Source of the DNA: Rugosibacter aromaticivorans
GTDB taxonomy: Bacteria; Pseudomonadota; Gammaproteobacteria; Burkholderiales; Rhodocyclaceae
Assembly: GCF_000934545.1 (NCBI RefSeq)
Contig: NZ_CP010554.1
Location: 124,001 to 188,000 of the forward strand
Length of the DNA: 64,000 nt
Reading direction: 5' to 3'
This document shows positions 16,158 to 56,777 of this stretch, piece after piece. How positions within the stretch are numbered: position 1 is the first letter of the stretch; every line of letters starts with the position of its first letter. The notes below the pieces were generated by a model. The model saw only the letters and a program-made list of their open reading frames with translations, did no database searches and had not been told where the DNA came from. The position numbers and the translations under genes are program-made.

Positions 16158-17192
16158 TTATTTCTCTTGCCGCCAGCGGTACGCCACAGCGAATAGCAGG
16201 ACGGCGTATATCACTACCCAAAAAGCCAGGCCTAAGGTAACTGAGGCACCGTTCATGGTACGTAAAACCAGCGCACTCGCAGCGCACGCGGCCATCAATT
16301 CATACGCTGCTAACGCCAGCTGCCGGTGTGACCAGCCGGAGCGGATGAGGCGCTGATAGGCATGATCATGATGCGCCTGCCACACCTTCTCGCCGCGCAA
16401 GGCACGGCGTAGTAGCGTGACAGTGGCGTCCACAATAAAAGGCGAGAACACCAGCAGCGGAAACCACACCGGCCATACCGTTGCCTGCCAGCCCCACAGT
16501 CCTAGTGCACCCGCCAAAAAGCCGAGCGGGATGGAGCCGACATCACCCAAAAACACCCGTGCAGGGTCAAAATTGAAGACCAAAAATGCCAGCGCGGCAG
16601 CCGCTACGACGAAAGCCAGCGCCGCGAATTCCGGTTGCCCGGCCAGCCACGCAGCAATTCCGTAAACACCAAAACCGAAAACCGCCATGCCACCCGCCAG
16701 CCCGTTGGCGCCGTCCATGAAGTTGTAAAGATTCATCATCCAGCCGAGCGCGAGCGTCAGGCCGAATAGCATGGGCCAACTCACCGTATCACCAGCGCCA
16801 CCCAGCCCAGAAACGTGTTCAAAAGACGGACCCAAGACTTTTCCGGCAGCAACCACCCACACGGCGGCCACCAGCAAATGCACCGACAGACGTAGCGCAG
16901 CTGATAGTCCACGGCGATCATCCAGAAAGCAAAAGCCGCCGAGAAGCAACAGCAGAATAAGTAGCAGCAGCAGTGGCGATGAATCAACCAGTGCACCTGT
17001 CAGCAAGCTACCGCCAAGAATGCCCGCCAGCAAGCCCAGCCCGCCGATACGCGGCGTCGGTGTGGAATGTAACGAACGATGATTCGGCTGATCCAGCGTA
17101 GTTTTCGCCAGTTGCCCACGCAGCAGCCAACGCAAAAGCAAAAAACAAACAGAAAACGAGACCACGGATGAAATAAGGTAAGTCATGGGCAC
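16158..17192 (-). CDS. WecA/MraY-family glycosyl-1-phosphate transferase
   Basis: A 344-residue polytopic membrane protein that transfers a sugar-1-phosphate from a UDP-sugar to undecaprenyl phosphate, starting O-antigen or capsule synthesis. Family motifs are visible: DQPNHRSLHSTPTPRIGG (about 35-52), LDDR near 90, NLYNFMDGANGLAGG (about 155-169), VFLGDVGSIPLGF (about 213-225) and AHHDHAYQRL near 274. About ten hydrophobic segments are present. Residues GKVLGPSFEHVSGL and the GAGDT that follows come from a copy of the dispersed repeat described separately and lie in a loop between membrane helices. It is followed on the island side by a hairpin. The exact sugar substrate is unknown. Confidence 0.85.
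   Translation of the reverse strand: MPMTYLISSVVSFSVCFLLLRWLLRGQLAKTTLDQPNHRSLHSTPTPRIGGLGLLAGILGGSLLTGALVDSSPLLLLLILLLLLGGFCFLDDRRGLSAALRLSVHLLVAAVWVVAAGKVLGPSFEHVSGLGGAGDTVSWPMLFGLTLALGWMMNLYNFMDGANGLAGGMAVFGFGVYGIAAWLAGQPEFAALAFVVAAAALAFLVFNFDPARVFLGDVGSIPLGFLAGALGLWGWQATVWPVWFPLLVFSPFIVDATVTLLRRALRGEKVWQAHHDHAYQRLIRSGWSHRQLALAAYELMAACAASALVLRTMNGASVTLGLAFWVVIYAVLLFAVAYRWRQEK
16784..16842 (-). repeat. Dispersed modular repeat, 59-bp form, inside the WecA-like gene
   Basis: On the gene's coding strand it reads AAAAGTC, then a 36-bp core, then GGCGCTGG and TGATACGG. The core is shared with the prmC copy at 29 or more of 36 positions by eye. It is translated in frame as KVLGPSFEHVSGL followed by GGAGDT, in a region where other family members show little conservation. 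Confidence 0.75.
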
Positions 17193-17240
17193 TGGCTCAT
17201 AACCACGCCGTTGCCACTGCCCGATGACATTGTGTTGGTG

Positions 17241-18527
17241 TTACAGCGACCACACTTTTCTCGCCCCGAATGCGCCGCTCCCAAACAGCGATTTGACGTC
17301 AATGATGCAGCCGTGCGCGGCAAGACATTCGGCAATGCCGACAGCCTCGCGCTGGCGGTAGGCGTCGTGCGCCACGGCGATGACGACGGCATCCGCTGCG
17401 GGTAAATTTTCCCAGGAGGTTAATGTCAGCCCGTATTCGTGCATCGCCTCGTCTGTGTCGGCCAGCGGGTCATGCGCGATGACTTCGATGCCGTAACTTT
17501 GGAGTTCGGTAATGATGTCCGGCACTTTTGAGTTGCGCAGGTCGGGGCAGTTTTCCTTGAAGGTGAGGCCCAGCACGTTGACCTTTGCCCCCTTGATGCC
17601 GCTGCCGGATTCAATCATCAGTTTGACGGTTTTTTCGGCAATGAATTTGCCCATGCCGTCGTTGATGCGGCGGCCGGCGAGAATCACTTGCGGGTGGTAG
17701 CCAAGCATGTCGGCCTTATGCGTCAGGTAGTAGGGGTCGACGCCGATGCAGTGGCCGCCAACGAGGCCGGGCGAAAATTTGAGAAAGTTCCATTTGGTGC
17801 CGGCAGCGGCCAGCACGTCCGAGGTGGCGATGCCGATCTTGTCGAAGATGATGGACAGTTCGTTCATCAGCGCAATGTTGAGATCGCGCTGAGTGTTCTC
17901 GATCACCTTGGCGGCTTCGGCGACCTTGATCGATGAAGCGCGATGCACGCCGGCGGTGATGACGGATTCGTAAAGCTGCGCGACTTGCGCGAGCGTTGCC
18001 GCATCGTCGCCAGAGACGACCTTGATGATTTTGGTGAGCGTGTGTTCCCTGTCGCCGGGGTTGATACGCTCAGGCGAATAGCCGATGTGAAAATCTGTTT
18101 GCCACTGCATGCCGGAATGTTTTTCCAGCACGGGGATACAGACTTCTTCTGTTGCGCCGGGATAGACGGTGGACTCAAAAATCACCACCGCACCGCGTTT
18201 CATGTGCTGGCCGACAATGGTTGATGCGCCGATCAGCGGGCCGAAGTCGGGCTGATGCGCGGCGTCAACGGGCGTGGGCACGGCGACGATCAAAAAGTCG
18301 GCGCTGGCAAGACGGCGCGGATCGGTAGTGCAGTCGAGTTTTGCGGCTGCGCGCAAATCGTCCGCCGAGACTTCGCCGGTCGGGTCGCGGAATTCGTTGT
18401 AGGCGGCAACCTTGGCGGCCGATAAATCAAAGCCGATGGTTTGACATTGCTTGCCGAATTCAACAGCGAGCGGCAGGCCGACATAGCCGAGGCCGACGAT
18501 GGCAATGATGGGATTTTCAGGTAGCAT
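17241..18527 (-). CDS. UDP-sugar 6-dehydrogenase (WbpO/TviB-like)
   Basis: A 428-residue nucleotide-sugar dehydrogenase making a UDP-uronic acid, most like UDP-N-acetylgalactosamine/glucosamine dehydrogenases. It has the NAD site GLGYVGLPLAVEFGK at the N-terminus, VPTPVD (about 85), ESTVYPGATEE with the conserved Thr/Glu, and the catalytic-Cys motif GGHCIGVDPYYL (about 255). The C-terminal UDP-binding domain contains LGLTFKENCPDLRNSK. ATG 18527 is chosen because the GxGxxG motif follows directly; an upstream ATG would add 30 unrelated residues. With the epimerase upstream it supplies acidic sugars for surface polysaccharide. A 20/23 match to the dispersed repeat lies at 18293-18315. Confidence 0.88.
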   Translation of the reverse strand: MLPENPIIAIVGLGYVGLPLAVEFGKQCQTIGFDLSAAKVAAYNEFRDPTGEVSADDLRAAAKLDCTTDPRRLASADFLIVAVPTPVDAAHQPDFGPLIGASTIVGQHMKRGAVVIFESTVYPGATEEVCIPVLEKHSGMQWQTDFHIGYSPERINPGDREHTLTKIIKVVSGDDAATLAQVAQLYESVITAGVHRASSIKVAEAAKVIENTQRDLNIALMNELSIIFDKIGIATSDVLAAAGTKWNFLKFSPGLVGGHCIGVDPYYLTHKADMLGYHPQVILAGRRINDGMGKFIAEKTVKLMIESGSGIKGAKVNVLGLTFKENCPDLRNSKVPDIITELQSYGIEVIAHDPLADTDEAMHEYGLTLTSWENLPAADAVVIAVAHDAYRQREAVGIAECLAAHGCIIDVKSLFGSGAFGARKVWSL

Positions 18528-18567
18528 TATCTTAATTGGCCGGATAAATGGGTGTTGGTACAATGGT

Positions 18568-18828
18568 TCATAGCAGACTTGCCCACCGAACCGACAAGGG
18601 GCTGTTCCAGCTTTCATCTATGCAGGCAATAGCCGATTCTGGAGACAGCAGCTGCGAAAAAATACGCGGGTTGGCGCAAATACACAGAAAGGCCAGTATC
18701 GACCTCCAGGGAGTGTTGACTGTTGCGGCGCCCGAGAGCGCCTGTTTCCACCAGGATATGGCGCGTTTGTGTTGGGGCAAGTTCTGGTTGACCGCATAAG
18801 TCAGCAGGTTGGCATCAACCAGAATCAC
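18568..18828 (-). pseudogene. Truncated VapC-like PIN toxin
   Basis: An 86-residue fragment starting from GTG (MILVDANLLTYAV), the typical start of VapC PIN ribonucleases. Similarity persists through NTPWRSILAFLCI and NPRIFSQLLSPESAIA, then ends after about 75 residues. The C-terminal half of a usual 130-145-residue VapC, with the last catalytic acidic residues, is missing. The GTG overlaps the antitoxin stop by 4 bp, so this was a normal vapBC operon. It is probably an inactive toxin remnant between the dehydrogenase and epimerase genes. Confidence 0.7.
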
Positions 18829-19100
18829 TTGCGTTGCTCCAGATTGGCTCGTAGCGATATGTCTTCCAGTTCGTCCGCAAGATGCAATGCCTTGTCCAGA
18901 TTAATGCTCGCCAGCGGTACGCCAAGCGAAGCCGGCTTCAGGCGATACGCTGGAGACGTGGACTTGCGTACTGCTTTCTGCTGCAACTCCGTCAGCAGGT
19001 TTTCATTGATCACCGGCTTAAAGGGTTTGCCTGCTTCTTGCGCGCGCTTTTTGAGTTGGCAGGCCAGTGCGTCTTCGATTGTGAGCGTGGTTCGCATCAT
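18825..19100 (-). CDS. VapB-like ribbon-helix-helix antitoxin
   Basis: A 91-residue protein. The first 40 residues (MRTTLTIEDALACQLKKRAQ) have the ribbon-helix-helix pattern of VapB/CopG antitoxins; the acidic tail (ADELEDISLRANLEQRK) would wrap the toxin. It is followed, with a 4-bp overlap, by a truncated VapC. The antitoxin looks intact and may still bind its own promoter or cross-neutralise another VapC. Two adjacent ATG codons could each start it. Confidence 0.75.
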   Translation of the reverse strand: MMRTTLTIEDALACQLKKRAQEAGKPFKPVINENLLTELQQKAVRKSTSPAYRLKPASLGVPLASINLDKALHLADELEDISLRANLEQRK

Positions 19101-19200
19101 GCCGCCCTTCGCGTAAGCATCAAAGTGTCATTTTACGGCAAGTCATGGTTTGCAAGATGCCCACTGATCGATGAGGAGACTGGCGTTCTCTGGTGGCATG

Positions 19201-20208
19201 TCAGACGCCGTAATAGCCGCGATACCAGGTAACAAAGCGTGCGATGCCCTGTTCGACGCTGGTGGCGGGGGCGAAGCCGGTGGCGGCTTGTAGCGCAGCA
19301 GTGTCAGCCGAGGTGGCGGGCACATCGCCGTTTTGCAGCGGTAAAAAATTTTTCTGCGCGGTTTTGCCTAAAGCAGTTTCAAGCGTGGTGATGTAGGTCA
19401 TGAGCTCCACAGGATTGTGGTTGCCGATGTTGAACACGCGGTAAGGTGCCCAACTGGTGGCGGGGTCGGGATGCTGTTTGTCAAACGCTGGATTGGCCAT
19501 GGGCGGCCGGTCGCAAACGCGGATCACGCCTTCGACAATATCATCGATATAGGTGAAGTCGCGTTGCATCTTGCCATGGTTGAAAACATCAATCGGCTGC
19601 CCTTCGAGTATCGCCTTGGTGAACAAAAACAGCGCCATGTCGGGCCGGCCCCAGGGGCCGTACACGGTAAAAAAACGCAGCCCGGTGGTGGGTATGCCAT
19701 ATAGGTGGCTGTAGGTATGAGCCATCAGCTCGTTGGCTTTTTTGGTGGCGGCATACAGGCTCACCGGATGGTCTACCGAATCGGTCTCACTAAACGGCAT
19801 TTTGGTGTTGCCACCATACACGCTGGAGCTGCTGGCATAGGTGAGATGCTCAACCCCGGCGTGACGGCAGCCTTCGAGGATGTTTACGAAGCCAGTCAGG
19901 TTGCTGTCCACATAAGCGTGTGGGTTTTGTAGCGAATAGCGCACGCCAGCCTGGGCAGCCAGATGAATCACCCGCTGTGGCTTTTCATGGGCGAACAGTT
20001 CAGCCATGCCGGGCCGGTCTGCCACGTCATGCTTGATGAAGCGGAACAACGAGCGGGGTGTCAGTCGTGCCAGTCGCGCTTCTTTGAGCGTGACATCGTA
20101 ATAATCGTTCAGGTTATCCAGCCCGATGACTTCGTCGCCGCGCGCCAGCAGGCGTTCGCAAACATGCATGCCGATGAATCCGGCGCAACCGGTCACAAGA
20201 ATTTTCAC
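19201..20208 (-). CDS. UDP-uronate 4-epimerase-like NAD-dependent epimerase
   Basis: A 335-residue extended short-chain dehydrogenase. The Rossmann motif GCAGFIG is at residues 7-13, the SSSSVYGG loop near 125, the catalytic Tyr/Lys in [11 protein letters not shown] near 150, and [19 protein letters not shown] (about 178) is typical of UDP-glucuronate 4-epimerases (LspL/CapI type). It likely converts UDP-glucuronate to UDP-galacturonate for capsule or O-antigen. It is in the same orientation as the dehydrogenase and WecA-like genes, but the vapBC remnant splits the cluster. Confidence 0.85.
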
Positions 20209-20618
20209 TATTCATCCACCTGAAAAGAACGCATTTTCTCATAGTTGGCCAATGGTTCCACCACGATGAAGATATGTCGCGCTTGCGCGGGTGACGAAAT
20301 CTGCTGTTGTTTCACGCTGGCGCGGGCGATTTTCCCCGAGTCAATTCCCGATCAACTCTGGCAACGATATGCCGCACATCGATGCGCTTGGAGCCGCTTA
20401 CCAAAATCCGCCCAAACTATTCATGTGGCATTGCAGTTGCTTGTGCCGGTGCGTTCCCGGGTGTGAAAATTTCAATCGCGGAATTTGGGTCCAGCAATAA
20501 GTGTTACCGTCTATGACATTTCGTTATAGAAATGCCATTGAGCGCGGTGTATATTTTGATGACGTGGAAAAGTATCTACGTGAATGCTTCATGGAATTCA
20601 ATTGCATAAGGAGGAATC
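20209..20618. other. Intergenic region of 410 bp
   Basis: It separates the divergent epimerase gene and the small exported-protein gene and must hold both promoters. I see a short inverted repeat (ATTTC and GAAAT around GTTATA near 20520) and AT-rich stretches near 20555, but no -35/-10 pair good enough to call. No coding region is supported. Confidence 0.4.
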
Positions 20619-22896: not shown

Positions 22897-22958
22897 ATTG
22901 TCCGCGCCGGTGCTGCGCTTTGCGCGCGTACTTGGCCATTATTTGTGATCGCCTTGCC

Positions 22959-24035
22959 ATGAAAAAAAGCATTTACGACAAACTGGAACAACTGGCCGAA
23001 CGCCTGGCCGAGCTCGATGGCTTGCTGGGTGCCGAAAATGCTACGCACGACATGGACAGCTATCGCAAGCTCACGAAGGAGCATGCCGACATCACGCCCG
23101 TGGTCGCTTTGTTCCAGGCTTACCGTCGTGCCAGCGCCGACTTTTCAGCGGCGGGCGAGATGTTGAACGACGCTGAAATGAAAGCGTTGGCGCAGGTCGA
23201 GCAGGTGAGTGCGTTGGCGGAAATGGCGCGACTCGAAGATGAATTGCAAACGGCGCTGCTGCCGCGCGACCCGAATGACGATAAAAATCTGTTCCTTGAA
23301 ATCCGCGCTGGCACGGGCGGCGATGAATCCGCGCTGTTTGCTGGCGATCTGTTTCGCATGTATTCGCGTTACGCCGAGCGCCAGGGCTGGCGCGTGGAGA
23401 TCATCTCGCGCAGCGAGTCCGACCTTGGTGGCTTCCGTGAAATCATTGCCCGCATCGAAGGTCATGGCGCCTATTCGCAACTCAAGTTCGAGTCCGGCGG
23501 GCATCGCGTGCAGCGCGTGCCGACGACGGAAACGCAAGGCCGTATCCACACCTCGGCCTGCACGGTAGCGGTAATGCCAGAAGCCGATGCGTTGGCCGAG
23601 GTTGCAATCAATCCGGCGGACCTGCGCATCGATACATTTCGCGCGTCGGGCGCGGGCGGGCAGCACATCAACAAGACCGATTCGGCGGTGCGCATCACGC
23701 ATCTGCCCACCGGCATCGTCGTCGAATGTCAGGACGACCGTTCGCAACATCGCAACCGCGCCCAGGCCATGGCCGTGCTGGCAGCGCGTATCACGGCAGA
23801 GCAAGAGCGCGAGCAGCAGCAAAAACTCGCCTCGACGCGTAAATCATTGATCGGTTCCGGCGACCGTTCCGAGCGCATCCGCACCTATAACTTTCCGCAG
23901 GGGCGTATTACCGATCACCGCATCAATCTGACGCTGTACAAGATTGACGCGATCATGGATGGTGATTTGAGCGAGCTGGTCCGTGCGCTGACTACCGAAC
24001 ATCAAACCGAACTGCTGGCCGAGCTGGCAGCGTGA
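22959..24035 (+). CDS. prfA: Peptide chain release factor 1
   Basis: A 358-residue class I release factor for UAA and UAG. The codon-recognition PxT loop is in [14 protein letters not shown], and the catalytic GGQ is in [18 protein letters not shown] 22959 begins the conserved N-terminus [16 protein letters not shown]; an earlier in-frame ATG would add 13 residues. It lies 62 bp after hemA and overlaps prmC by 4 bp (GTGA). Its GGQ glutamine is the substrate of the PrmC methylase next door. A 19/23 match to the dispersed repeat occurs at 23123-23145. Confidence 0.96.
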
Positions 24036-24949
24036 ACACGCGGGTGACCATCGCCGCCGCGCTGGCCGCTGCGCGCGAAAAATTGCCGGGCTTTGAGGCG
24101 CGCCTGCTGTTGGGCCATGTATTACAGCGACCGCCCGTGTGGTTGCTGGCACATGATGATGTGCTGGATGAGGCCGTGCTGCGCGCTTTTAATGTGCTTG
24201 TGGCGCGCCGTCATGAGGGCGAACCCGTGGCTTATCTGCTCGGCCGGCGCGAATTTTTCGGCCGTGATTTTTGCACTTCGCCCGCCGTGTTGATTCCGCG
24301 CCCTGAGACTGAACTACTGGTCGACATCGCGCTGCGAAAAGTCTTGAGTCCGTCTTTTGAACCCGTTTCTGGGCTGGACGGCGCTGGTTTGGATTCGTTT
24401 CTGGATGATACGGCGGAAAACGGCAATACAGCGGGTAAAGCAGTGAGAATTCTCGACCTGGGTACCGGCACCGGCTGCATCGCCATCACACTGGCGCTGG
24501 AATACGCGCAGGCGCACGTAACTGCCCTCGATGCCAGTGACGCAGCATTAGCGATCGCCAAAGAAAACGCGCAGCGGCTCCATGCCGCGGTGCGGTTTTT
24601 GCAGAGCGATTGGTATGCGACTGTGCAGGGCGAGACGTTTGATCTCATCGTCAGCAACCCCCCCTACATCGCAGCCACCGATGCCCATTTGGCGCAGGGC
24701 GATTTGCGTTACGAACCGTCTGCTGCATTAACCAGCGGCGGGGATGGACTCGATGCCATCCGCCACATCATCGCCGCTGCGCCCGCGCATTTATCTCCGC
24801 AGGGTCAGCTCTGGCTGGAACACGGCTACGATCAGGCCGAAGCCGTGCGCACGTTGCTCATCGCCGCCGGATTCGTGGCTATCAAGCAGCATCGCGATCT
24901 GGCTGGCATCGTGCGCGTGAGCGGCGGTTGTTTTATGGGTGTGGAATAA
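24032..24949 (+). CDS. prmC: Release factor glutamine methyltransferase
   Basis: A 305-residue SAM-dependent methylase modifying the GGQ glutamine of RF1/RF2. It has an N-terminal helical domain, [12 protein letters not shown], motif [17 protein letters not shown] and the catalytic NPPY in [11 protein letters not shown]. The GTG start overlaps the prfA stop by 4 bp. Between the [11 protein letters not shown] and ILDLGTGTG motifs sits an extra stretch of about 30 residues ([28 protein letters not shown]) supplied by a dispersed repeat. The insertion keeps the frame and lies in a linker, so the enzyme is probably active. Confidence 0.95.
24337..24413 (+). repeat. Dispersed modular repeat, 77-bp form, inside prmC
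   Basis: It reads AAAAGTC, a 36-bp core almost identical to the copy in the WecA-like gene, GGCGCTGGT, an 18-bp insertion, then GATACGG. All interior lengths are multiples of three, and the frame gives [13 protein letters not shown] followed by DGAG and DTA. Orientation relative to the host gene and reading frame are the same as in the WecA-like gene. Confidence 0.75.
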
Positions 24950-24950
24950 A

Positions 24951-26644: not shown

Positions 26645-27720
<1,076 letters not shown>

Positions 27721-27721
<1 letters not shown>

Positions 27722-27823
27722 AAAGTCTTGTCCAGAGACGGCTTTGTATTCCCTGCGGTCAGATTCAAAAGTCCGTTTTTGACGGCGCTAGTCGGCTGTG
27801 AAAAGTCGGCGCTGGTGATACGG
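27721..27823 (+). repeat. Dispersed modular repeat, about 103-bp compound copy after hemB
   Basis: It begins with AAAAGTCTTG overlapping the last base of the hemB stop and ends with a complete perfect 23-bp short form (AAAAGTCGGCGCTGG then TGATACGG at 27801-27823). Between them lie partial units (CAAAAGTCCG, GACGGCGCTAG, GTCGGCTGTG). It looks like nested or rearranged copies of the same element. Confidence 0.65.
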
Positions 27824-27842
27824 CCTTATCTTATATATCTTA

Positions 27843-29444: not shown

Positions 29445-29538
29445 CCGTATCTCCACTGTCGGCTTTGCACAGCCGACCGGCTTCGGCGGCACGGAGCAGT
29501 GCTCCGCGAAACCCCGCCTACGCCCAGCGCCGACTTTT
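29445..29538 (-). repeat. Dispersed modular repeat, 94-bp form, after hsp20
   Basis: On the minus strand it starts AAAAGTCGGCGCTGG and ends GATACGG, with a long unrelated interior. The interior includes a small hairpin (GTCGGCT and AGCCGAC around TTGCAC). It begins inside the hsp20 stop codon region. Only the two ends match the other copies, which helps define the element's termini. Confidence 0.6.
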
Positions 29539-33392: not shown

Positions 33393-33604
33393 CTGTAGAA
33401 AAATCGGCGCTGGTAATACGGCAAGATAGCCCCTCTCGTTGCCCGCGTTGTGCTGCAAGCTTCACCTGTGGTGTTGTCGCGGGGCGCGACACCTGCTGGT
33501 GCGCTGAATTGCCGCCGCTCACGCTGTCCAAAACTTCTGCCGCTACTTGCTATTGCCCTGAATGTTTCCAGGCACTACTCAGCGCGCCATCTCACCCAAC
33601 GTAA
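33389..33604 (+). CDS. Cysteine-rich CWC family protein
   Basis: A 71-residue protein with paired Cys motifs [19 protein letters not shown] and CYCPEC, the pattern of the small Cys-rich CWC family, probably metal-binding. Its ATG overlaps the DoxX stop by 4 bp, so it ends the MNIO operon. Its first residues ([12 protein letters not shown]) are encoded by a copy of the dispersed repeat. Its end overlaps the convergent nudB gene by 26 bp. A role in metal handling with the peptide is inferred. Confidence 0.75.
33399..33421 (+). repeat. Dispersed modular repeat, 23-bp form, at the start of the CWC gene
   Basis: It matches the short consensus (AAAAGTCGGCGCTGG then TGATACGG) at 21 of 23 positions. 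It lies in codons 4-11 of the CWC gene but in a different frame from the copies in other proteins (giving EKSALVIR). Confidence 0.6.
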
Positions 33605-43506: not shown

Positions 43507-43572
43507 AAAAGTCGGCGCTACAAGGCGGTCGAGCAAAATGCGCTCTCCTCGCCGCTGCGGATGGCGATACGG
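43507..43572 (+). repeat. Dispersed modular repeat, 66-bp form, after ffh
   Basis: It starts AAAAGTCGGCGCT and ends GATACGG with an unrelated interior of about 46 bp. It is located 52 bp past the ffh stop in a 260-bp non-coding stretch that contains nothing else recognisable. Confidence 0.5.
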
Positions 43573-43715
43573 CGAGGATCTAACGGGGTCGAAGTAAATT
43601 GGTCAGCTTCAACCTTCTTTGGAACCGATTGCCACGCCGCCCACGAATCCAGCGCGGATTACCGTTTTTCTGAACAGAAAATCGTAGCCTTTCTTATTAC
43701 GTAGAACCCGACGCC

Positions 43716-44043: not shown

Positions 44044-44649
44044 TTATCGCGTAGCTTGCATCACCCTTGGCCCCCAACTCCAGCGCCCTTCCCATGCGCC
44101 GCGCACCATGTTCGGATACTCGGGCTGGCCCAGGCTGCCGTTGTAGCGGCCCAGGGCGCGGTACAGGTCGCCGTTTTCGAGATCGAGATAGTGGCGCAGG
44201 ATGGTGCAGCCAAAACGCAGATTCGTGCGCAGGTGAAACAGATTGCTATCCTCGCTGCCGATCAGCTTGACCCAGAAGGGCATGATCTGCATGTAGCCGC
44301 GGGCGCCCGCCGATGACACGGCGTATTTTCTGAAGCCACTTTCTACCTGGATCAGGCCGAGCACCATCTGCGGATCGAGCCCGGCGCGCTTGGCTTCGTA
44401 ATATACGGTTTTGAGGAAATCCAGCCGCGCCTCGCGGTCCGGCATGCGCGGCGAAAGCCGGCGCGACATTTCTGTGAGCCAGTCAATTTTTTCTTCAAGT
44501 GAGGGAAACTGCGGTTCAGGTGCGGCATGGTCGGCAATCGACGCCTGCAGCGCGGCCTGCACGCTGGCTGCCAGCGGTTCGTACTGCTGCGCGCCAGCCC
44601 AGACATTGCCGGTAAGTAGCAGCGTACCAAGAGCAATCGTCAGGCGCAC
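44044..44649 (-). CDS. Lytic transglycosylase (SLT domain)
   Basis: A 201-residue exported murein transglycosylase. A signal peptide ([20 protein letters not shown]) is followed by an SLT domain: catalytic Glu in [20 protein letters not shown] (about 105), [14 protein letters not shown], and the closing [12 protein letters not shown]. It is encoded 6 codons into the end of proS on the same strand (10-bp overlap), an arrangement seen in related beta-proteobacteria. Confidence 0.92.
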
Positions 44650-46364
44650 AGCTTCTGCTGCAAGAATCCGGTGATTTCATCTGCCGCCACCAGCGTCGCG
44701 TCGACGTCGCTACGGCCTTTGTATTCGAGCTTGCCGTCTTTCAGGCCGCGTTCGCCCACTACCACGCGATGCGGCACGCCGATGAGTTCCCAATCCGCAA
44801 ACATCGAGCCGGGGCGTTCGTCGCGATCATCCAGCACCACATCGATACCTGCCGCGAGGAGTTCTGCGTAAAGCGCGTCAGCTGCCGTTTTCACCATGGT
44901 CGATTTGCCATACGCCATGGGCACAATCACTACGGCGAAGGGTGCGATGCCCGCCGGGAAAACAATGCCGCGTTCATCGTGGCCCTGTTCGATCGCCGCG
45001 CCGATAATGCGTGAAACGCCGATGCCATAACAGCCCATTTCCATGATTTGTTCCTTGCCCTGCTCGTCAAGAAAAGTACATTTGAGCGCTTCGGCATATT
45101 TGGTGCGTAGCTGAAAAATATGACCGACTTCGATGCCGCGACATAGCTCCAGCGTGCCTTTGCCATCGGGTGATGGGTCGCCTGCGACCACGTTACGAAT
45201 ATCGGCGATTTCCGCTGGTAGCGGCAAGTCACGGCTAAAGTTTGCGCCGGTCAAGTGATAGCCTTCTGCGTTGGCGCCGCAAATAAAGTTGTTCATAACA
45301 GCCACCGCGCGGTCAGCAATGATACGGCCATTAAAGCCCACCGGTCCAATATAGCCGGGCTTGCAACCCAGCGCCGCCACAATCTCTTCGTCGCGCGCAA
45401 AACGAAACTCGCCTATCAGTTTTTGCGCCTTGATTTCGTTCAGCTCATGGTCGCCGCGCAACAGCAGCAGGACGAATTGGCCGATCTCCCTGGCGGAACC
45501 AGCCATCACGGCGACTGCCTTGACCGTCTGGGTGAGTGGCGCATTAAGAAAATCGGCCACGTCGGCGCATTTGGTCTTGCCTGGAGTCGCTTTTTTCTCG
45601 CATTTTTCTATTGCCGCCGTCTCACCAGCGCCGATTTTTTGTGGTGTGACAGCTTCAGCCAGTTCGACGTTCGCAGCGTAGTCCGATGTCGGGCAAAAGG
45701 CGATGGCGTCTTCGCCCGAATCAGCCAGCACATGAAACTCGTGCGAGCCGGTGCCGCCAATCGAACCGGTATCCGCCGCCACGGCGCGGAACTTAAGACC
45801 AAGCCGCGTGAAGATGCGTGTATAGGCGTCATGCATGCTGCGGTATTCGCGCTCCAGATCGGCGAACGAGGTGTGGAACGAATAGCCATCTTTCATCAAA
45901 AACTCGCGCCCGCGCATGACGCCAAACCGTGGCCGGATTTCGTCGCGGAATTTGGTCTGAATCTGGTAAAAATTTCGGGGCAACTGGCGATAACTTTTCA
46001 CTTCGCGACGCACGATATCGGTAATCACTTCCTCGTGCGTTGGGCCAATGACAAAATCACGCTGGTGGCGATCCTTGAAGCGCAGCAGTTCAGGGCCGTA
46101 TTGCGGGCCGCGGCCGGATTCTTCCCACAGCTCGAAAGGTTGCACGGCGGGCATCAGCAGCTCGATGCCTCCGGCGCGATTCATTTCCTCGCGCACGATG
46201 GTCTCTACTTTGCGCAGCACGCGCAAACCCATCGGCATCCAGGTATAGATGCCCCCGGCAAGACGCCGAATCAGCCCGGCGCGCAGCATGAGCTGATGAC
46301 TGACAATCTCGGCGTCCGAGGGGGCTTCTTTGAGGGTGGCAATGAAAAACTGGCTGGCGCGCAT
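44640..46364 (-). CDS. proS: Prolyl-tRNA synthetase
   Basis: A 574-residue bacterial-type class II synthetase with the editing insertion. Visible parts are [20 protein letters not shown], motif 2 [20 protein letters not shown], the INS editing domain (about 225-405) and the C-terminal anticodon domain. At the start of the editing insertion, [16 protein letters not shown] is encoded by a dispersed-repeat copy; other ProS proteins vary here. It is divergent from rppH with 124 bp between start codons. Confidence 0.96.
45617..45639 (-). repeat. Dispersed modular repeat, 23-bp form, inside proS
   Basis: On the proS coding strand it matches the short consensus at 21 of 23 positions. It is translated KIGAGETA, the same frame and orientation as the copies in the WecA-like gene, prmC and the GT4 glycosyltransferase. 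It lies in a variable loop at the entry of the editing domain. Confidence 0.65.
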
Positions 46365-49301: not shown

Positions 49302-50456
49302 TTAGCGCGACGTTTTTTCTTGCAGGATGCGTGTGTAAAGCGCAGTTAATTTTTCTGCCATGCGCGTGAGATCAAGCGCACTGACACTTGAACGTGCCGC
49401 GGTTTGCATGGTGGCGGCGCGGCCTGTTTCGCAGAGTGTGTTGATTGCCGCAGCGAGTGATTCAGGATGATGCGCCCTGACGACGACACCATTGGCGGTT
49501 GTGACTAATTCTGCGGCGCCGCAACTGGTGGTGGTGATCAGCGGCAAGCCACACGCCAAGGCTTCGAGCGCCGCATTAGGGAATGGATCGTATAGCGTGG
49601 GCAGCGCAAAGATGTCGGCTGCGCCATAAAAGGGGCGAACATCTTTTTGCGGCCCCCAGAAACGAACGCGCCTCGCCAAGCCAAGTTTTTCAGCTTTATG
49701 CTGCATCGCTAGAGCAGATTTGTCGTAACCCACTACCCACAGCTGGGCAGAAGATGACGGCAGTAGCGCAAACGCGTCAAGCAAACTTGGCAAGCCTTTG
49801 CGTTCAAAGCCGGAACCCACAAAAAGCACCACGGGCGCCGTATCACCAGCGCCGACTTTTGTCCGCATCGTCGCACGATACTCGGTACGTAAGCGTGGAT
49901 GAAAGTGTTCCAGATCGACACCGTTGTAAATCACCGGCAGTTTTTCAAGCGGGATGTCAAAGCGCTGTGCAACATCGTCACGCACCATGTACGAGTTGCA
50001 AATCACCGCGCCAAGATTTGGATGACGGAACATCGCCGCCTCAGCTCGCAGCATGTAGCGATGCCAGGGCGAGAGCCATTCAGTGAGGCGAGCTATCTTG
50101 CTGCGTGAGGCGGCTCGCAAGGCAAGCCACGTGGCATGCACGCCGTCGCCTGCGCGGTAAATGTGGCAACCGGGAATCCGCTCGTGACTTTGCACCAGGT
50201 CGTATTCACCGGATGCAATAATTTTTTGTACGCCGCGCGCAAAGCTCCAGTCGCGCCAGGTGCGGCCGATATAAAAAGGGTTCACGCGGTGGCCTGCTGG
50301 CGGCGTTTCAGTTGTCGATGCAGTTGGTGTTGTCCATTGTCTTGCAATGATGTCGACATCCACGTGGCGCGCTTTCAAACCGGCGATCGCCCGTTCGACA
50401 AAACGTTCTGCACCGCCAAACGGCGTGTATTTCTGCCGCACGATGGCGAGTTTCAC
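49302..50456 (-). CDS. GT4-family LPS-core glycosyltransferase (WaaG-like)
   Basis: A 384-residue retaining glycosyltransferase with the GT-B fold. The start VKLAIVRQKYTPFGGAERFV fits WaaG-type LPS core transferases; the nucleotide-sugar site is ALPTLYDPFPNAALEALACG (about 285). GTG 50456 overlaps the WaaQ stop by 4 bp, so the two form an operon. The linker between the two domains contains TKVGAGDTAP, encoded by a perfect copy of the dispersed repeat. Confidence 0.88.
   Translation of the reverse strand: MKLAIVRQKYTPFGGAERFVERAIAGLKARHVDVDIIARQWTTPTASTTETPPAGHRVNPFYIGRTWRDWSFARGVQKIIASGEYDLVQSHERIPGCHIYRAGDGVHATWLALRAASRSKIARLTEWLSPWHRYMLRAEAAMFRHPNLGAVICNSYMVRDDVAQRFDIPLEKLPVIYNGVDLEHFHPRLRTEYRATMRTKVGAGDTAPVVLFVGSGFERKGLPSLLDAFALLPSSSAQLWVVGYDKSALAMQHKAEKLGLARRVRFWGPQKDVRPFYGAADIFALPTLYDPFPNAALEALACGLPLITTTSCGAAELVTTANGVVVRAHHPESLAAAINTLCETGRAATMQTAARSSVSALDLTRMAEKLTALYTRILQEKTSR
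49838..49860 (-). repeat. Dispersed modular repeat, perfect 23-bp form, inside the GT4 gene
   Basis: All 23 positions match the short consensus on the gene's coding strand. It is translated KVGAGDTA, in the same frame as the copies in proS, prmC and the WecA-like gene. It lies at the junction of the two Rossmann domains. Confidence 0.75.
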
Positions 50457-51580
50457 AGCAATTCCTCGCACGCAGCCATGACCTGTGTTACGGGCAGGGT
50501 CGTCAGGCATTCGCTGATCTTGCTGTCGTTACAACCCGCCCGACCACACGGGCGGCAAACGTGATTGCTTGAGGTAACGATCCGCTGGGCGACTTGCCAG
50601 GGCCCCCATTCGCGGTCACCGGAGGGGCCGAATATTGCCACCGTGGGCGTGCCCATAGCGGCTGCGATATGCATGGGGGCGGAATCGACACCCACAAACA
50701 ACTTGGCGCGCGAGGTCAGCGCAGCCAGTTCTTTTAATGAAAGCTGGCCGGATAAATCAATCAGCGGTGCGGTGTTTAGTACAGCGCTGCGGGCGCGGTG
50801 GACAAGAATCGTCTGGATCATGGCGAGCTCTTGCGCATCGGGTGCAGCGGTTAAAACAATGGGCCAGCCGCTGCTGCTCAATAGCTGACACAATGCGGCG
50901 ACGCGTTCGGCTGGCCAACATTTGAACAGCCAGCGTGACGTGGGATGAATATGAATAAAGTGCCCGGCCGTTAAGCCGTGCGCCGCCATGAGTTGATCCA
51001 TGCGGGCTTCTGCGGGTGCACCCGGCACGAGAATCACCCGCTTATCTGTGGCTGTTGGCGTGAAACCCAAGGCGCGCAGGCTATCCAGATTGCTTTCCAC
51101 CGTATGTCGATCGGGGTTTGATTGTGCAGGGTAAAAATGCGTAAAGCTGCGTGCCCAAAAGCCTCCGCCAACATTGTCACCGAAGCTGCCATCCGAGTTG
51201 CCACTTAAGCGTGGCGCAACGGACCAGCGCGGACGCAACAACCGCGTGAGCCACGCACCCCGCATGTGCACTGAGAGATGGATGATCAGATCATAATGCC
51301 GTGCGCGCAATTGCGCCAACAAACGCCCTTCGGCCGTCAATTGGTGCCAGACGCCCTGCTTTTTCCACTGGCGATCGATGACATGCAGTTGAGCCAATTG
51401 CGGATGGCAGGTGAGCATGGGCGCGGTATCGCGATATACCAGCGCATCAATCTCACACTGGGGTGCCAGACGCTGCAGGGTGGAGATGACCGGGGTGGCC
51501 AACAAAACATCGCCGTGATGGCGTAATTTAATGACCAAGGCGCGGCGCACAGCGGCCGCGGAAAAGATGTCGGAAGGCAT
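50453..51580 (-). CDS. waaQ: LPS heptosyltransferase III (RfaQ-like)
   Basis: A 375-residue GT9 family heptosyltransferase adding heptose to the LPS inner core. Motifs are RALVIKLRHHGDVLLATPVI (about 13), HIHPTSRWLFKCWP (about 205), the FVGVDSAPMHIAAAMGTPTV site (about 290) and GPSGDREWGPWQ. The C-terminal CRPCGRAGC motif is typical of this family. It is coupled to the WaaG-like gene by a 4-bp overlap. Confidence 0.9.
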   Translation of the reverse strand: MPSDIFSAAAVRRALVIKLRHHGDVLLATPVISTLQRLAPQCEIDALVYRDTAPMLTCHPQLAQLHVIDRQWKKQGVWHQLTAEGRLLAQLRARHYDLIIHLSVHMRGAWLTRLLRPRWSVAPRLSGNSDGSFGDNVGGGFWARSFTHFYPAQSNPDRHTVESNLDSLRALGFTPTATDKRVILVPGAPAEARMDQLMAAHGLTAGHFIHIHPTSRWLFKCWPAERVAALCQLLSSSGWPIVLTAAPDAQELAMIQTILVHRARSAVLNTAPLIDLSGQLSLKELAALTSRAKLFVGVDSAPMHIAAAMGTPTVAIFGPSGDREWGPWQVAQRIVTSSNHVCRPCGRAGCNDSKISECLTTLPVTQVMAACEELL

Positions 51581-52290: not shown

Positions 52291-52316
52291 ATTGAATCTA
52301 GTCTGCTTTCCCTGAT

Positions 52317-52494: not shown

Positions 52495-52507
52495 CCTAAG
52501 CTACAAC

Positions 52508-52552: not shown

Positions 52553-52612
52553 AGGCTTTATCGGGTAAAAAATGGAGCGTATTTTTTTAAAACACGCATG
52601 GAGGCTATTGGC

Positions 52613-53083
52613 ATGTCGCGCTATTGGTTGATGAAAAGCGAACCTTCAGTGATCAGCATTGATGATGTGCTGGCCATGCCGCAGCAAACGGTTGATTGGT
52701 GGGGAGTACGTAACTACCAAGCGCGCAATTTCATGCGCGATCAAATGTCCGTCGGTGACGGGGTTTTTTTCTATCATTCTTCATGTCCCGAACCGGGCAT
52801 TGCGGGGGTGGCCGAGGTCGCGCGGCAGGCTTATCCTGACCGCACGCAGTTTGATCCTGCAAGCCCTTACTTTGATGCCAAGGCAACCGCTGAAAACCCA
52901 CGCTGGATGAATGTGGATGTTCGTATCGTGCGGAAAACCCGGTTGATCAGTCTGGATGAGTTGCGCGCTCATGCGGAGCTGGCTTCCATGCGCACGCTGC
53001 AACGCGGTAATCGCCTGTCCATCACGCCAGTAGATCCAGCGGAGTGGAAGTTCATCATTGAAAAACTGATAGGTACGCAATGA
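52613..53083 (+). CDS. EVE domain-containing protein
   Basis: A 156-residue EVE (PUA-like) domain protein. Family motifs are RYWLMKSEPS at the start, WWGVRNYQARNFMRDQMSVG (about 28) and FYHSSCPEPGIAGVAEVARQ (about 52). EVE domains bind modified bases in DNA or RNA. ATG 52613 is chosen by the conserved start and the GGAGG upstream. It overlaps the TauE gene by 4 bp (ATGA). Confidence 0.9.
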   Translation: MSRYWLMKSEPSVISIDDVLAMPQQTVDWWGVRNYQARNFMRDQMSVGDGVFFYHSSCPEPGIAGVAEVARQAYPDRTQFDPASPYFDAKATAENPRWMNVDVRIVRKTRLISLDELRAHAELASMRTLQRGNRLSITPVDPAEWKFIIEKLIGTQ

Positions 53084-53880
53084 ACTGGTTCTTTGCTTAC
53101 CTTGCGCTAGGCGTCGCGGCTGGTTTTTTTGCTGGCTTGTTAGGGATAGGCGGTGGCGCCGTGGTGGTGCCTATCCTTGTCATGATGTTTGCAGCGCAAG
53201 GGTTTCCGGATGCGCATTTGATGCACTTGGTGCTCGGCACCTCAATGGCGACCATTATTTTCACGTCGATTTCCAGCATGCGCACGCATCATCAGCATCA
53301 GGCGGTGAACTGGTCTGTGGTGAAAACCATCAGCCCCGGCATCATTCTCGGCACGCTGCTGGGCGCGCAACTGGCGGCGCATGTGCCAACCCGTCCGCTG
53401 GCTATTTTTTTCGCCGTGTTCATGACCTACGTGGCTGCACAAATGATCATCAATGCCAAACCGGCGCCTTCGCGCGATCTCCCCGGCCGCTTGGGCATGA
53501 TGGGTGCAGGCTTGGGTATCGGGGCTATTTCCGCGCTGGCGGCAGTGGGTGGCGGCTCGCTGACCGTGCCATTTTTACTGTGGTGCAATGTCAAAATGCA
53601 CCAAGCCATTGGAACATCGGCAGCTGTTGGCTTGCCCATTGCGCTGGCTGGCACCCTAGGTTACATGCTGTCAGGTTACGGCGCGAGCGGTTTACCGGCG
53701 GGCAGCTTTGGCTTTATTTATCTGCCTGCGTTAGCGGGTACGGTGCTGGCCAGTGCGATGGTCGCACCCTTTGGTGCGCGGCTGGCGCACCGGCTGCCGG
53801 TGGCAATCCTGAAAAAGATTTTCGCCAGCGTGATCTTGCTGTTGTTGGCAAAAATGCTGTATGGGTTGTTTAGTCGCTAA
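53080..53880 (+). CDS. TauE/SafE-family sulfite/organosulfonate exporter
   Basis: A 266-residue membrane protein with about eight hydrophobic segments. The two repeats typical of the family are visible: GFFAGLLGIGGGAVVVPILV (about 15) and ISALAAVGGGSLTVPFLLWC (about 148). It is coupled to the EVE gene by a 4-bp overlap. The substrate is unknown. Confidence 0.88.
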   Translation: MNWFFAYLALGVAAGFFAGLLGIGGGAVVVPILVMMFAAQGFPDAHLMHLVLGTSMATIIFTSISSMRTHHQHQAVNWSVVKTISPGIILGTLLGAQLAAHVPTRPLAIFFAVFMTYVAAQMIINAKPAPSRDLPGRLGMMGAGLGIGAISALAAVGGGSLTVPFLLWCNVKMHQAIGTSAAVGLPIALAGTLGYMLSGYGASGLPAGSFGFIYLPALAGTVLASAMVAPFGARLAHRLPVAILKKIFASVILLLLAKMLYGLFSR

Positions 53881-53938
53881 GCGGGTTACTGGGCGGGCTG
53901 AAAAATTTGTCGCCAAGTGTGCGAATCGCGGGTGCTTA

Positions 53939-53961
53939 CCGTATCACCAGCACCGACTTTT
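53939..53961 (-). repeat. Dispersed modular repeat, 23-bp form, between TauE and yrfG
   Basis: It matches the short consensus on the minus strand at 22 of 23 positions. It lies in the space between two convergent genes, 12 bp past the yrfG stop. Confidence 0.65.
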
Positions 53962-53973
53962 TATCGCGCCCGA

Positions 53974-54636
53974 TTACTTTGGCAGCAATTGTGAAAAATC
54001 ATCAATCGCGGGGTAGTCTGCTGTGTTTTTTTGCGGCTGTCGCGTGTCCGGTTTTTTAACCGCAACTAAATGCGCTATGCCATATCGGCGGGCTGAATCC
54101 AGTACAGGCAAACTATCATCCACCAGCAAAGTACGCGCAGGGTCAAAGGGTTCGATTTTGTTCAAGTGTTGCCAGAACGCTTGTTCCTCTTTGGCGGCGC
54201 CCAGGGCATGCGAGCTGATAATGGCATCAAAGTGCGGGGTGAGCCCGGTGCGCGCCATTTTCAGCGCCACGCTTTTATGGTGTGCGTTAGTCGCCAGAAC
54301 AATGCGTCGGCCGCTGAGCCGGATGGCGGAAAGAAACGTGAGCACATGCGGGTGAACTGCAATCAGATGCGCCACTTCTTCTTTCAAGCACATGATGTCC
54401 AGTCCCAGCTCGTTTTGCCAGAAATCGACGGAATACCAATCGAGCGTGCCCGCGCCTTGGCGGTAACGGGTCATCAATTCGTGGCGCACCACATCGTGCG
54501 GCCGATCAAGCGATTCAGCGTAGCGTTGTGGCAAATGCGTCTGCCAAAAATGATTATCAAAATGCAGGTCGAGCAAGGTGCCATCCATGTCGAGCAACAC
54601 GGTGTCGATGTGCGCCCAGGGGACAAGTGGATTCAT
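53974..54636 (-). CDS. yrfG: GMP/IMP nucleotidase (HAD family)
   Basis: A 220-residue HAD hydrolase dephosphorylating purine monophosphates. Motif 1 is LLDMDGTLLDLHFDNHFWQT (about 14), motif 2 VLATNAHHKS (about 113) and motif 4 TLLVDDSLPVLDSA (about 172). The LDLHFDNHFW continuation is characteristic of YrfG. It lies 33 bp downstream of the enoyl-CoA hydratase gene on the same strand. Confidence 0.88.
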   Translation of the reverse strand: MNPLVPWAHIDTVLLDMDGTLLDLHFDNHFWQTHLPQRYAESLDRPHDVVRHELMTRYRQGAGTLDWYSVDFWQNELGLDIMCLKEEVAHLIAVHPHVLTFLSAIRLSGRRIVLATNAHHKSVALKMARTGLTPHFDAIISSHALGAAKEEQAFWQHLNKIEPFDPARTLLVDDSLPVLDSARRYGIAHLVAVKKPDTRQPQKNTADYPAIDDFSQLLPK

Positions 54637-54669
54637 GGTGTGCTCAGTGTGGGTCGGGGTGAGTTAGGG

Positions 54670-55446
54670 TTAGCAGCCCCGAAATCGTGGTGGGCGTTTT
54701 TCGAGAAAGGCGGCAAGGCCCTCTTGATAATCTGCTGTCTCAAGAAAACGAAATGCCTCGCGTTTTTCTTCCAGCGTGAGCGGCTGTCCGGTAGATAAGC
54801 GGGTGATCCATTGCCTGTGCGCTCTTGCCACCAAGGGCGCCCCTGCGGCAATGCGGCAGGCGGTGGCGTGCGCTTCAGTGAACACCTGCGCATCTTCAGT
54901 GACGCGTGTTAGCAAGCCTTTGGCATAGGCTTCGTCTGCAGTGAATAAGCGGCCTTCGAGCAGAATTTCCTTGGTAACCGCCGGGCCTGCGATGGCGAGT
55001 AAACCGTGAAGTTCACCGGGATACATTGAAAATCCGAGCTTCATGATCGGTGCGCCGAACTTGGCGCTGTGGCCCGCGATGCGCAAATCACAAGCGCAGG
55101 CAATTTCCAGCCCGCCACCGATGCATGGGCCGAGAATAGCGGCAACCGTGGGCACGGCACAGTGTTCGATCGCGGCCAGTGCCGCACCCACTGCCTCGTG
55201 GTAAGCAAGAGCTAGATCCACAGTGGCACGGGCGGTATGAAACTCTTCCAGGTCGCCTCCGGCGGCAAAGGCTGCGCCTTCACCGCGCACAATGATGCAG
55301 TGCAAAGAGTCGTCATCACTCAGCGTGCGCATGACGGCGTGCAACTGTTGCCACATGGCGGCATTGAGGGCGTTGAGCTTGCCGGGGTTGCACAACGTCA
55401 CCGTAGCGATGTCATTTTCGCGCGTGCGGCGTATCGTGGGTGTCAT
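54670..55446 (-). CDS. Enoyl-CoA hydratase/isomerase family protein
   Basis: A 258-residue crotonase. The oxyanion-hole segments are AAFAAGGDLEEFHTA (about 58) and PCIGGGLEIACACDLRIAGH (about 105). At the usual second catalytic position, the loop KLGFSMYPGELHGLLAIAG has no clear Glu/Gly pair, so the reaction may differ from simple hydration. It may serve the acyl-CoA genes to the right, but is on the opposite strand. Confidence 0.85.
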   Translation of the reverse strand: MTPTIRRTRENDIATVTLCNPGKLNALNAAMWQQLHAVMRTLSDDDSLHCIIVRGEGAAFAAGGDLEEFHTARATVDLALAYHEAVGAALAAIEHCAVPTVAAILGPCIGGGLEIACACDLRIAGHSAKFGAPIMKLGFSMYPGELHGLLAIAGPAVTKEILLEGRLFTADEAYAKGLLTRVTEDAQVFTEAHATACRIAAGAPLVARAHRQWITRLSTGQPLTLEEKREAFRFLETADYQEGLAAFLEKRPPRFRGC

Positions 55447-55541
55447 GGCTGTTCATGCTCCTTATTTTTCTTATGGTCATTTTACCGGGCTTTACATGAT
55501 AGCCACGCGCGTGCTGCGGCTCCTGCGGTATAGTCAGACGG

Positions 55542-56738
55542 ATGAAAATTTCACAACAACACTTCGCTTTTTTGCTGGCCGCACTGTCTGCGATCGGTCC
55601 GTTTGCGATTGATACTTATTTGCCGGCTTTCCCGGAAATGGCGCAGCAACTGGGCGCGTCGGCGTTGCAGATTCAGCAAACGCTCACCTTCTATCTGATT
55701 CCCTTTGGTTTCATGATGCTGTGGCATGGCACGCTATCAGATGCCTTGGGCAGGCGACGCATTATTCTTGCCGGGCTATTGCTGTTCGTTCTGGCATCAT
55801 TGCTGTGCGCTTTTGCTACGCGCATTGAAATGTTGTGGCTTGGACGCGCGTTGCAAGGGATGTCGTCAGGTGTGGGCATGGTAGTGGGCCGGGCCATGGT
55901 ACGTGATGTGCTGCACGGCGCTCACGCGCAGCGGCTGATGGCCAAGGTAGCGATTCTTTTCGCCATTGCGCCGGCCGTTTCACCTATTGTGGGTGGCTAC
56001 CTTTTGCGCTTTTATGACTGGCAGGGAATTTTTATTTTTCTTGCACTGTTTACGGGCTTGTTACTCGCTGCATGCCTGGCCTGGCTGCCCGAAACGCTCG
56101 CGGTGGAAAAGCGGCAATCGCTGCATCCCCTGAAATTATTGCGGGCTTATCAAGACGTGTTGAGTCATGGGATGTTTAATCGCCTGGCGATGGCCAGTGC
56201 GTTTACTTTCAACGCATTTTTTATTTACGTCGTGGCGGCGCCCGTATTTCTTATTCGCCATCTTGGGCTGACGCCACAATCGTTTGCGGTCATGTTTGTG
56301 CCCCAGGTGGCCGGCATGATGATCGGTTCTTTTTTGTCGGGCAGATTCGCGGGGCGGCTCACGCATCGGCGGACTATCGTGATCAGCTATGCGGTCATGG
56401 CGGTTGCTGCCAGCTTGAATCTGGTGATTAATCTGGTTCTGCCACCGAGCCTGCCCTGGTCGATTTTGCCACTGCCCTTGTTTGCTTGCGGCATGTCGCT
56501 CTCGATGCCCAACATGCAGTTACTGGTTCTCGATTTGTTCCCCGAGCGGCGGGGGTTAACCTCCAGCACCATGAGTGCGATCTCTACGCTGGTTGGTGCA
56601 CTATCAACCGCCTTGATTATCCCGCTGCTATGGGATAGCACGTTGGGTCTGTCATTGGGTATGGCGGGATTTTTGGTGTTGGGTGTGATTAGCTTTGCGC
56701 TCACCCGAACATTAGACGAAGCTCACGCAGGCGCGTAA
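55542..56738 (+). CDS. Bcr/CflA-family MFS drug exporter
   Basis: A 398-residue major facilitator with 12 predicted membrane segments. It has DTYLPAFPEMAQQLGAS near the N-terminus, the motif A-like loop LSDALGRRRIILAG (about 66) and the motif C-like VGRAMVRDVLHG (about 114), as in Bcr/CflA multidrug exporters. The substrate is unknown. A dispersed repeat follows 16 bp after the stop. Confidence 0.88.
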   Translation: MKISQQHFAFLLAALSAIGPFAIDTYLPAFPEMAQQLGASALQIQQTLTFYLIPFGFMMLWHGTLSDALGRRRIILAGLLLFVLASLLCAFATRIEMLWLGRALQGMSSGVGMVVGRAMVRDVLHGAHAQRLMAKVAILFAIAPAVSPIVGGYLLRFYDWQGIFIFLALFTGLLLAACLAWLPETLAVEKRQSLHPLKLLRAYQDVLSHGMFNRLAMASAFTFNAFFIYVVAAPVFLIRHLGLTPQSFAVMFVPQVAGMMIGSFLSGRFAGRLTHRRTIVISYAVMAVAASLNLVINLVLPPSLPWSILPLPLFACGMSLSMPNMQLLVLDLFPERRGLTSSTMSAISTLVGALSTALIIPLLWDSTLGLSLGMAGFLVLGVISFALTRTLDEAHAGA

Positions 56739-56754
56739 CCATGGCTGAACAATG

Positions 56755-56777
56755 AAAAGTCGGCGCTGGTGAGACGC
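56755..56777 (+). repeat. Dispersed modular repeat, 23-bp form, after the MFS gene
   Basis: It matches the short consensus at 21 of 23 positions (AAAAGTCGGCGCTGG exact, then TGAGACGC). It is the rightmost copy seen; none was found in the remaining 7 kb. Confidence 0.6.

Follow-up and report, generated by a model that had tools for sequence, protein, structure and literature searches.

The 64,000-nucleotide stretch of Rugosibacter aromaticivorans analyzed here (the window; contig NZ_CP010554.1, positions 124,001 to 188,000) carries dispersed copies of a 25-bp non-palindromic motif, AAAAGTCGGCGCTGGYRNNACGGCG, which we propose, at a probability of roughly 0.65, to be the DNA uptake sequence of a lineage of Rhodocyclaceae, comparable to the DNA uptake sequences (DUS) of Neisseriaceae and the uptake signal sequences (USS) of Pasteurellaceae. 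The proposal is drawn from sequence comparison: a long non-palindromic word that is present on both strands, mostly replaces residues in genes, is kept against the decay of its flanks, is limited to one family and is spelled differently by genus has the profile known of DUS and USS. The observation is thus probably one of a new uptake-sequence system with dialects, within which short coding cassettes are nested.

The motif consensus reads AAAAGTCGGCGCTGG, followed by four looser bases and then ACGGCG. In the own genome (G000; a single contig of 2,934,611 bases), the exact 15-mer occurs 206 times (99 forward and 107 reverse) and the 23-mer with up to three mismatches 387 times, with no match to the reversed control in either case; hence, the genome-wide enrichment that an earlier sequence-only reading of the window had named as a check is indeed found. 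Within the window the 15-mer with up to two mismatches is seen 11 times against an expectation of 0.22. Copies were further dissected in 464 kb, namely, the window and 20 stretches of the own genome picked around listed copies, for which reason densities were taken from whole-genome counts only; genes were called as open reading frames scored by hexamers. Over the 21 fixed positions, the mismatch spectrum in these 464 kb is bimodal, with 29, 31, 16, 16, and 7 copies at zero to four mismatches and background thereafter, as opposed to 0, 0, 0, 0, and 1 for the reversed motif. The motif thus combines non-palindromicity, strong over-representation, and occurrence on both strands, as do DUS and USS. 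No replication-strand bias is evident among the 99 forward sites (Kuiper statistic 1.10; 5% critical value 1.75), and their spacing is random and Poisson-like (coefficient of variation 1.01).

The 96 short copies (i.e., those lacking a cassette) in the 464 kb comprise 24 in the sense orientation, 29 antisense, 38 intergenic, and 5 partial copies, so that 38 of 96 are intergenic although 85% of this DNA is called coding. Sense copies being about as common as antisense ones, the motif is neither a translated element nor a coding-strand signal. Copies with TGA have a stop in one forward frame; the frame reading KVGAGDT is used by 21 of the 24 sense copies, and the 29 antisense copies use an AVSPAPTF-type frame (16), an RITSADF-type frame (11), or others (2). 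The sequence-only reading had placed all genic copies in the sense orientation and in a single frame: the frame preference holds, whereas the restriction to the sense strand does not, since it had missed antisense copies at 18293 and 23121-23145. No motif copy lies in positions 1-16 kb of the window, which that reading called a defence island; this would suit foreign DNA, but a stretch of this length should hold only about two copies anyway. A plasmid search with 50-mers of two motif variants returned 14 weak matches (E values of 0.3 to 3), none with a host from the Rhodocyclaceae. As a separate observation, exact AAAAGTCGGCGCTGGnnnnACGGCG is present in 94 viral-contig stretches (80 listed; L208 onward), in which host flanks and phage-borne copies look alike.

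At testable genic sites, the short form mostly replaces residues, in permissive places. Homologues from the PDB are gapless across the motif residues in both alignments shown for MCC-alpha, in two of three for LeuC (the third has a one-residue gap), and in all three for GloB. For GatB, six of nine motif-free genera are gapless at the site (G011, G013, G021, G022, G028, and G034; e.g., IQVGEGDKAY), G025 and G035 being three residues longer and G026 four residues shorter; in GatA and proS, the motif sits in loops of variable length. When homologues in outgroup loci, some of which belong to motif-carrying genera, were consulted, the motif residues were not missing from most of them at 12 of 13 testable sites. 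The idea that the short form is an insertion, or the scar of one, was accordingly rejected at most testable sites (MCC-alpha, LeuC, GloB, GatB, and 12 of 13 outgroup-tested sites). In the sequence-only reading, the presence of the same residues at these loops in distant genera was to be fatal to an insertion model; this is partly the case (MCC-alpha, LeuC, GloB, and GatB are mostly gapless), and for the short form that model fails.

The motif is also better conserved than its surroundings. Nine sites were compared within the genus, using 26 of 34 alignments (eight with more than four gaps in the motif were dropped). At genic sites, identity amounts to 324/357 (91%) at the fixed positions, 43/68 (63%) at the four free positions, and 926/1360 (68%) in the flanks; the corresponding values at intergenic sites are 150/189 (79%), 22/36 (61%), and 486/720 (68%). 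At one antisense site, 32 and 38 of 80 flank positions are identical, along with 20 and 21 of 21 motif positions. Against genome G006, the flanks reach 532/720 (74%), less than the 83-90% found across the corresponding BLAST segments. Retention of the motif while its flanks decay indicates that something acts on it as DNA, and its conservation within permissive stretches, as seen at these nine sites only, recalls a published hallmark of DUS, namely, strong conservation of the motif where the core genome is permissive (PMC2397512).

Across genomes, the architecture AAAGTC-N12-ACGGCG has at least 20 matches (22-639) in 34 of 249 genomes of the family, representing 10 of 68 genera, and the reversed pattern never exceeds 7 in a single one of the 249. 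Outside the family, 242 genomes were scanned; G330 has 14 matches, the other 241 have at most 5, and the reversed pattern yields up to 12. Relaxed counts gave 775 in G009, 842 in G016, 487 in G027, 81 in G031, and 23 in G024, as opposed to 0-16 in the other 25 of 30 genomes (control 0-12). What is kept between genera is the pair of ends, of AAAGTC type and ACGGCG/A, 12 bases apart, and what changes is the interior: GGCGCTGGTGAN in the own genome, GGTGCTGGCGGG in G016, GACGCTGG in G024 and G077, and AGTCCC in G018. Such lineage-specific dialects around constant positions are likewise found in DUS and USS. A seedless search for the top 11-mer recovered, from evenly spaced samples, the motif in G027 and a related or dialect word in G018; in G000, G009, G016, and G024 it returned part of the motif or dialect, from stretches or contigs that had been picked for motif copies or synteny. 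Mixed genera (g2, g11, g20, g24, and g90) point to losses or to other dialects. Three further observations come from this survey. The 14 matches of G330, from another family of the order, are in two different dialects, which suggests horizontal transfer or a mixed bin. The G013 sample (L148-L152) has a different over-represented word, GGGAGCTTGCTGTGGGAGC, several 11-mers of which occur 11 times in 100 kb and which looks like a repetitive extragenic palindromic (REP) element. In the G034 sample (L143-L147), the palindromic CCCCTTGAAGGGG is over-represented, its 11-mers occurring six times in 100 kb.

The host encodes uptake machinery (ComEC and pilins), which is not an exclusive trait of motif carriers: all 37 family genomes searched gave ComEC matches free of internal stops, and the N_methyl (pilin) domain has 11 matches in G000, 10 of them over the cut-off, with eight distinct pilin-like proteins printed. 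The window itself includes genes for a T2SSF (PilC-type) protein and a prepilin peptidase. Two minor-pilin-like proteins of G000, of 174 and 217 amino acids, are candidate receptors, which we take to be PilE-like and FimT-like. Under the uptake-sequence proposal, a type IV pilus protein would bind the motif in free DNA, and DNA of the same lineage would be preferentially taken up and recombined. Copies would arise by mutation and then be spread and kept through biased transformation, settling where genes tolerate them, and the genus dialects could result from receptor and motif changing together.

The longer forms of the repeat are, as their sequences show, cassettes of 21, 27, 36, or 60 bp, or derivatives of these, lying within the motif and inserted at a few recurrent points in its copies. 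Cassette A follows TGA and, with its 57 bp and a repeated TGA, spans 60 bp; it reads GEAPALQGGRAKNALLAVADGD and has a stem, GCTAC...GTAGC (fold z score of -1.9; 7 of 200 shuffles as good), and is the only one of three cassette types folded with a clear stem. Cassette B (27 bp, after ACG) reads PRSKYPWGT, cassette C comprises 36 bp after AAAAGTC, and cassette D, of 21 bp, follows AAAAGT and is found in proS (G005) and GatB (G006). The KVGAGDT frame stays open through A, B, and C, and D is open as read in GatB. Filled and empty orthologous sites are seen for the GT4-type glycosyltransferase gene (filled in G003 and empty in five relatives), for proS (filled in G005), and for GatB (filled in G006), as judged against relatives; in-frame insertion with filled and empty sites is the behavior of Rickettsia palindromic elements (RPE). 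At each of the 20 loci retrieved as homologous to A (15) or B (5), motif sequence adjoins the cassette, with a degenerate left half in three (L174, L179, and L180); as the BLAST queries included motif ends, these loci are not an unbiased sample. Some A pieces, in stretches of the own genome and the genus, are chimeric with other repeats (L097, L109, and L113). Most sampled copies are empty, 84 having both motif halves and 6 the left half only, in a test that cassettes splitting AAAAGTC escape. Genome-wide, long forms with two exact ends 8-38 bases apart, a range that excludes the 60-bp cassette, are rare, with three matches, one of which is a short copy plus a second end. Mobilization of the cassettes by the REP-associated tyrosine transposase (RAYT) is not supported, since Y1 transposases do not track them: the cassette-bearing G001, G004, and G006 have no PF01797 match (G001 and G004 being 95% and 91% complete), and G000, G002, G003, G005, and G007 have one or two. 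One possibility is that the cassettes could move via short motif homology during transformation, or by means of a recombinase.

The copies in the window are as follows.

16784..16842, minus strand: a WecA-like gene (16158-17192, minus; Pfam Glycos_transf_4) holds this motif copy in frame, with a type C cassette of 36 bp behind AAAAGTC.
18293..18317, plus strand: short motif with interior CAAG, antisense in a UDP-glucose/GDP-mannose dehydrogenase-type gene (17241-18617, minus).
23121..23145, minus strand: short motif (15-mer at 23131-23145), antisense within a gene of release-factor type (22920-24035, plus; domains PCRF and RF-1).
24337..24413, plus strand: motif with a type C cassette and an extra 18 bp (+54 in all), read in frame within a PrmC-like gene (24032-24949, plus).
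27721..27825, plus strand: compound intergenic form in which a type C-like piece in reverse orientation (minus-strand BLAST match from 27769) is combined with a short motif (27801-27825).
29445..29538, minus strand: motif halves split by a GC-rich interior with inverted repeats, intergenic; +71, not a multiple of three.
33399..33423, plus strand: short motif (AAAAATCGGCGCTGGTAATACGG...), intergenic.
43507..43574, plus strand: motif with a cassette A from which 17 bp between a pair of GCGCT repeats are missing, outside the called genes; +43.
45615..45639, minus strand: short motif in proS (44640-46364, minus), reading KIGAGETA; the same site has cassettes in G005 and a different insertion in G002.
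49836..49860, minus strand: short motif in a GT4-type glycosyltransferase gene (49302-50510, minus), reading KVGAGDTA; cassette A is found here in G003.
53937..53961, minus strand: short motif, intergenic; lost in G007 and G008.
56755..56806, plus strand: intergenic motif into which cassette B (27 bp, CCGCGCAACAAGTCCCCTGGGGGGACG) is inserted behind TGAGACG.

The compound form starts at 27721, the final base of the stop codon ending gene 26687-27721. The best relatives of proS are records from a Sulfuritalea metagenome-assembled genome (MAG) and a Rhodocyclales MAG (85% identity), followed by Accumulibacter (75%) and Zoogloea (70-71%), from which we infer a genus of the Rhodocyclaceae. In G007 and G008, a motif is present on the opposite strand near the orthologue of 53937-53961, which hints at turnover of sites.

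Much of the sequence-only description survives this scrutiny. The copies it listed were found where it had placed them, the 59-bp form does equal the short form plus 36 bp after AAAAGTC, no short copy occurs in 1-16 kb or beyond 56.8 kb of the window, and a dispersed family with fixed ends and a variable interior, which is not a palindrome, was correctly recognized. Its statement that interior lengths are multiples of three applies to the genic forms (+36 and +54) but breaks down for the intergenic copies at 43507 (+43) and 29445 (+71). Similarly, the likeness to in-frame insertion of the RPE type is apt for the cassettes and inapt for most testable short copies, in which residues are replaced and not added; in other words, the inserted entity is the cassette, inside the motif, and the short form itself is mostly not inserted.

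Several other accounts of the motif need to be weighed. Were it the binding site of a chromosome-organizing, repair, or recombination protein (of the Chi, KOPS, or nucleoid type) unrelated to uptake, hundreds of conserved copies and lineage-specific versions would also fit. We regard this as unlikely, given the lack of strand bias and the Poisson-like spacing of the 99 forward sites and the patchy occurrence among genera of one family, which is odd for a housekeeping signal. Further, its 19-21 or so fixed bases are long for a Chi-like signal. A mobile palindromic or miniature inverted-repeat transposable element (MITE)-like element of the RPE type, inserted in frame and with the short form as its minimal version or excision scar, would account for the fixed ends, variable interior, preferred frame, and filled and empty cassette sites, and it could draw on the greater indel-proneness of motif sites relative to random windows and on the one site of 13 that looks inserted. 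For the tested short genic copies it is largely refuted, as these replace rather than add residues at most testable sites; with the fixed positions conserved above the flanks and no palindrome in the motif, and with genera varying the interior while keeping ends and spacing, which selection by a recognizer explains better than copying of an element, we consider it very improbable.

Very improbable, too, to our minds, is that the motif is chiefly a landing site for the cassettes, which would themselves drive its spread, with no role in uptake. The adjacency of motif and cassette at all 20 fetched loci speaks for it, if only for queries that carried motif ends; against this stand the emptiness of most sampled copies and the density of the architecture in G016 and G009, which is no lower than in G000 (639, 264, and 168 matches in 4.9, 4.4, and 2.93 Mb, respectively), even though samples of G016 (19 and 1) and G009 (7 and 0) contain almost no long forms. 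Moreover, it would leave conservation and dialects unexplained.

The uptake-sequence proposal itself has to contend with a number of observations that weigh against it. The uptake function, the receptor, the biased uptake, and the drive are what we infer, and ComEC is no argument either way, as motif-free genomes of the family have it equally. Known DUS are shorter and more numerous; moreover, copies in the 464 kb never come within 150 bp of one another, so that the inverted pairs at terminators typical of DUS are absent there. Such pairs are usual for DUS but are an accompaniment and not a requirement. As to a possible depletion from accessory DNA, the stretch considered was the motif-free 1-16 kb, for which only about two copies are expected. 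Replacement could be assessed at 13 of 53 genic sites, by means of homologues in 134 outgroup loci; at least five of the eight motif residues are missing in 6 of 144 alignments versus 10 of 2,748 control windows, making motif sites the more indel-prone, and lesser gaps are frequent (50 of 78 in proS; 11 of 14 in GatA). Three of the six gapped alignments come from a single site (L108 2621), where the residues are missing in 3/3 homologues and the motif looks inserted. Point mutation and a recombination tract look the same as routes of replacement and cannot be told apart here; for comparison, PMC2397512 reports that many recent DUS arrived by recombination. The motif has been lost at some orthologous sites (53937 in G007 and G008; L095 3613 in G001). 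Finally, samples of G013, G026, G031, and G034 gave no such word in the seedless 11-mer search, and all four copies found in G031 fall within one of five sampled 20-kb stretches (L158-L162), which means that its 76 architecture matches may be clustered, perhaps as a transferred region or a dying set.

In the relevant part of PMC12616744, uptake sequences and sequence-specific DNA uptake are credited to Neisseriaceae and Pasteurellaceae only, and among the open papers listed in our searches there was no report of this motif. We tentatively suggest, as something a little short of an even bet, that the motif represents a third, independently evolved uptake-sequence system, longer than the others, built of two blocks and spoken in several Rhodocyclaceae dialects, whose sites have been colonized by mini-cassettes specialized for in-frame insertion into uptake sequences and hence traveling with transformed DNA. 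If true, this third instance, coming from environmental bacteria and having multiple dialects, would allow the reasons for the evolution of uptake sequences (self-recognition, repair, or molecular drive) to be tested independently and their receptors to be sought in a new way, and the cassettes in the motif would constitute a natural experiment on whether selfish DNA exploits transformation.

Comparison with known systems places the two components differently. Cassette A resembles REP elements with RAYT (TnpA_REP) in being a short dispersed hairpin but differs in that Y1 transposase genes do not follow the cassettes. Like RPE, the cassettes are short, open in frame, and situated both within unrelated genes and between genes (as far as RPE are treated in PMC10969869); unlike RPE, which measure about 150 bp, they span 21-60 bp, enter a single 25-bp host motif at recurrent points, and show a clear stem only in A. 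The short form departs from RPE in not being an insertion relative to orthologous genes, save for the one site that looks inserted. The USS of Pasteurellaceae belong to another family and class, and their core sequence differs from the Rhodocyclaceae motif. Their general behavior is the same, dialects included, and their receptor is itself only predicted (ComN/PpdA), going by the account in PMC12616744. The DUS of Neisseriaceae are unrelated 10-12-mers, as opposed to a motif of about 25 bp whose two fixed blocks enclose loose bases, and the motif further differs in its several-fold fewer copies (N. meningitidis has about 1,900 DUS 10-mers according to PMC3630211), its putative receptor, the lack of inverted pairs in 464 kb, and the inserted cassettes. 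What the motif shares with DUS, whose dialects have been described in print (PMC3630211), is the form of a short non-palindromic repeat with many copies in and between genes, genus dialects around constant positions, and conservation in permissive stretches, as set out for DUS in the pertinent parts of PMC3630211 and PMC2397512.

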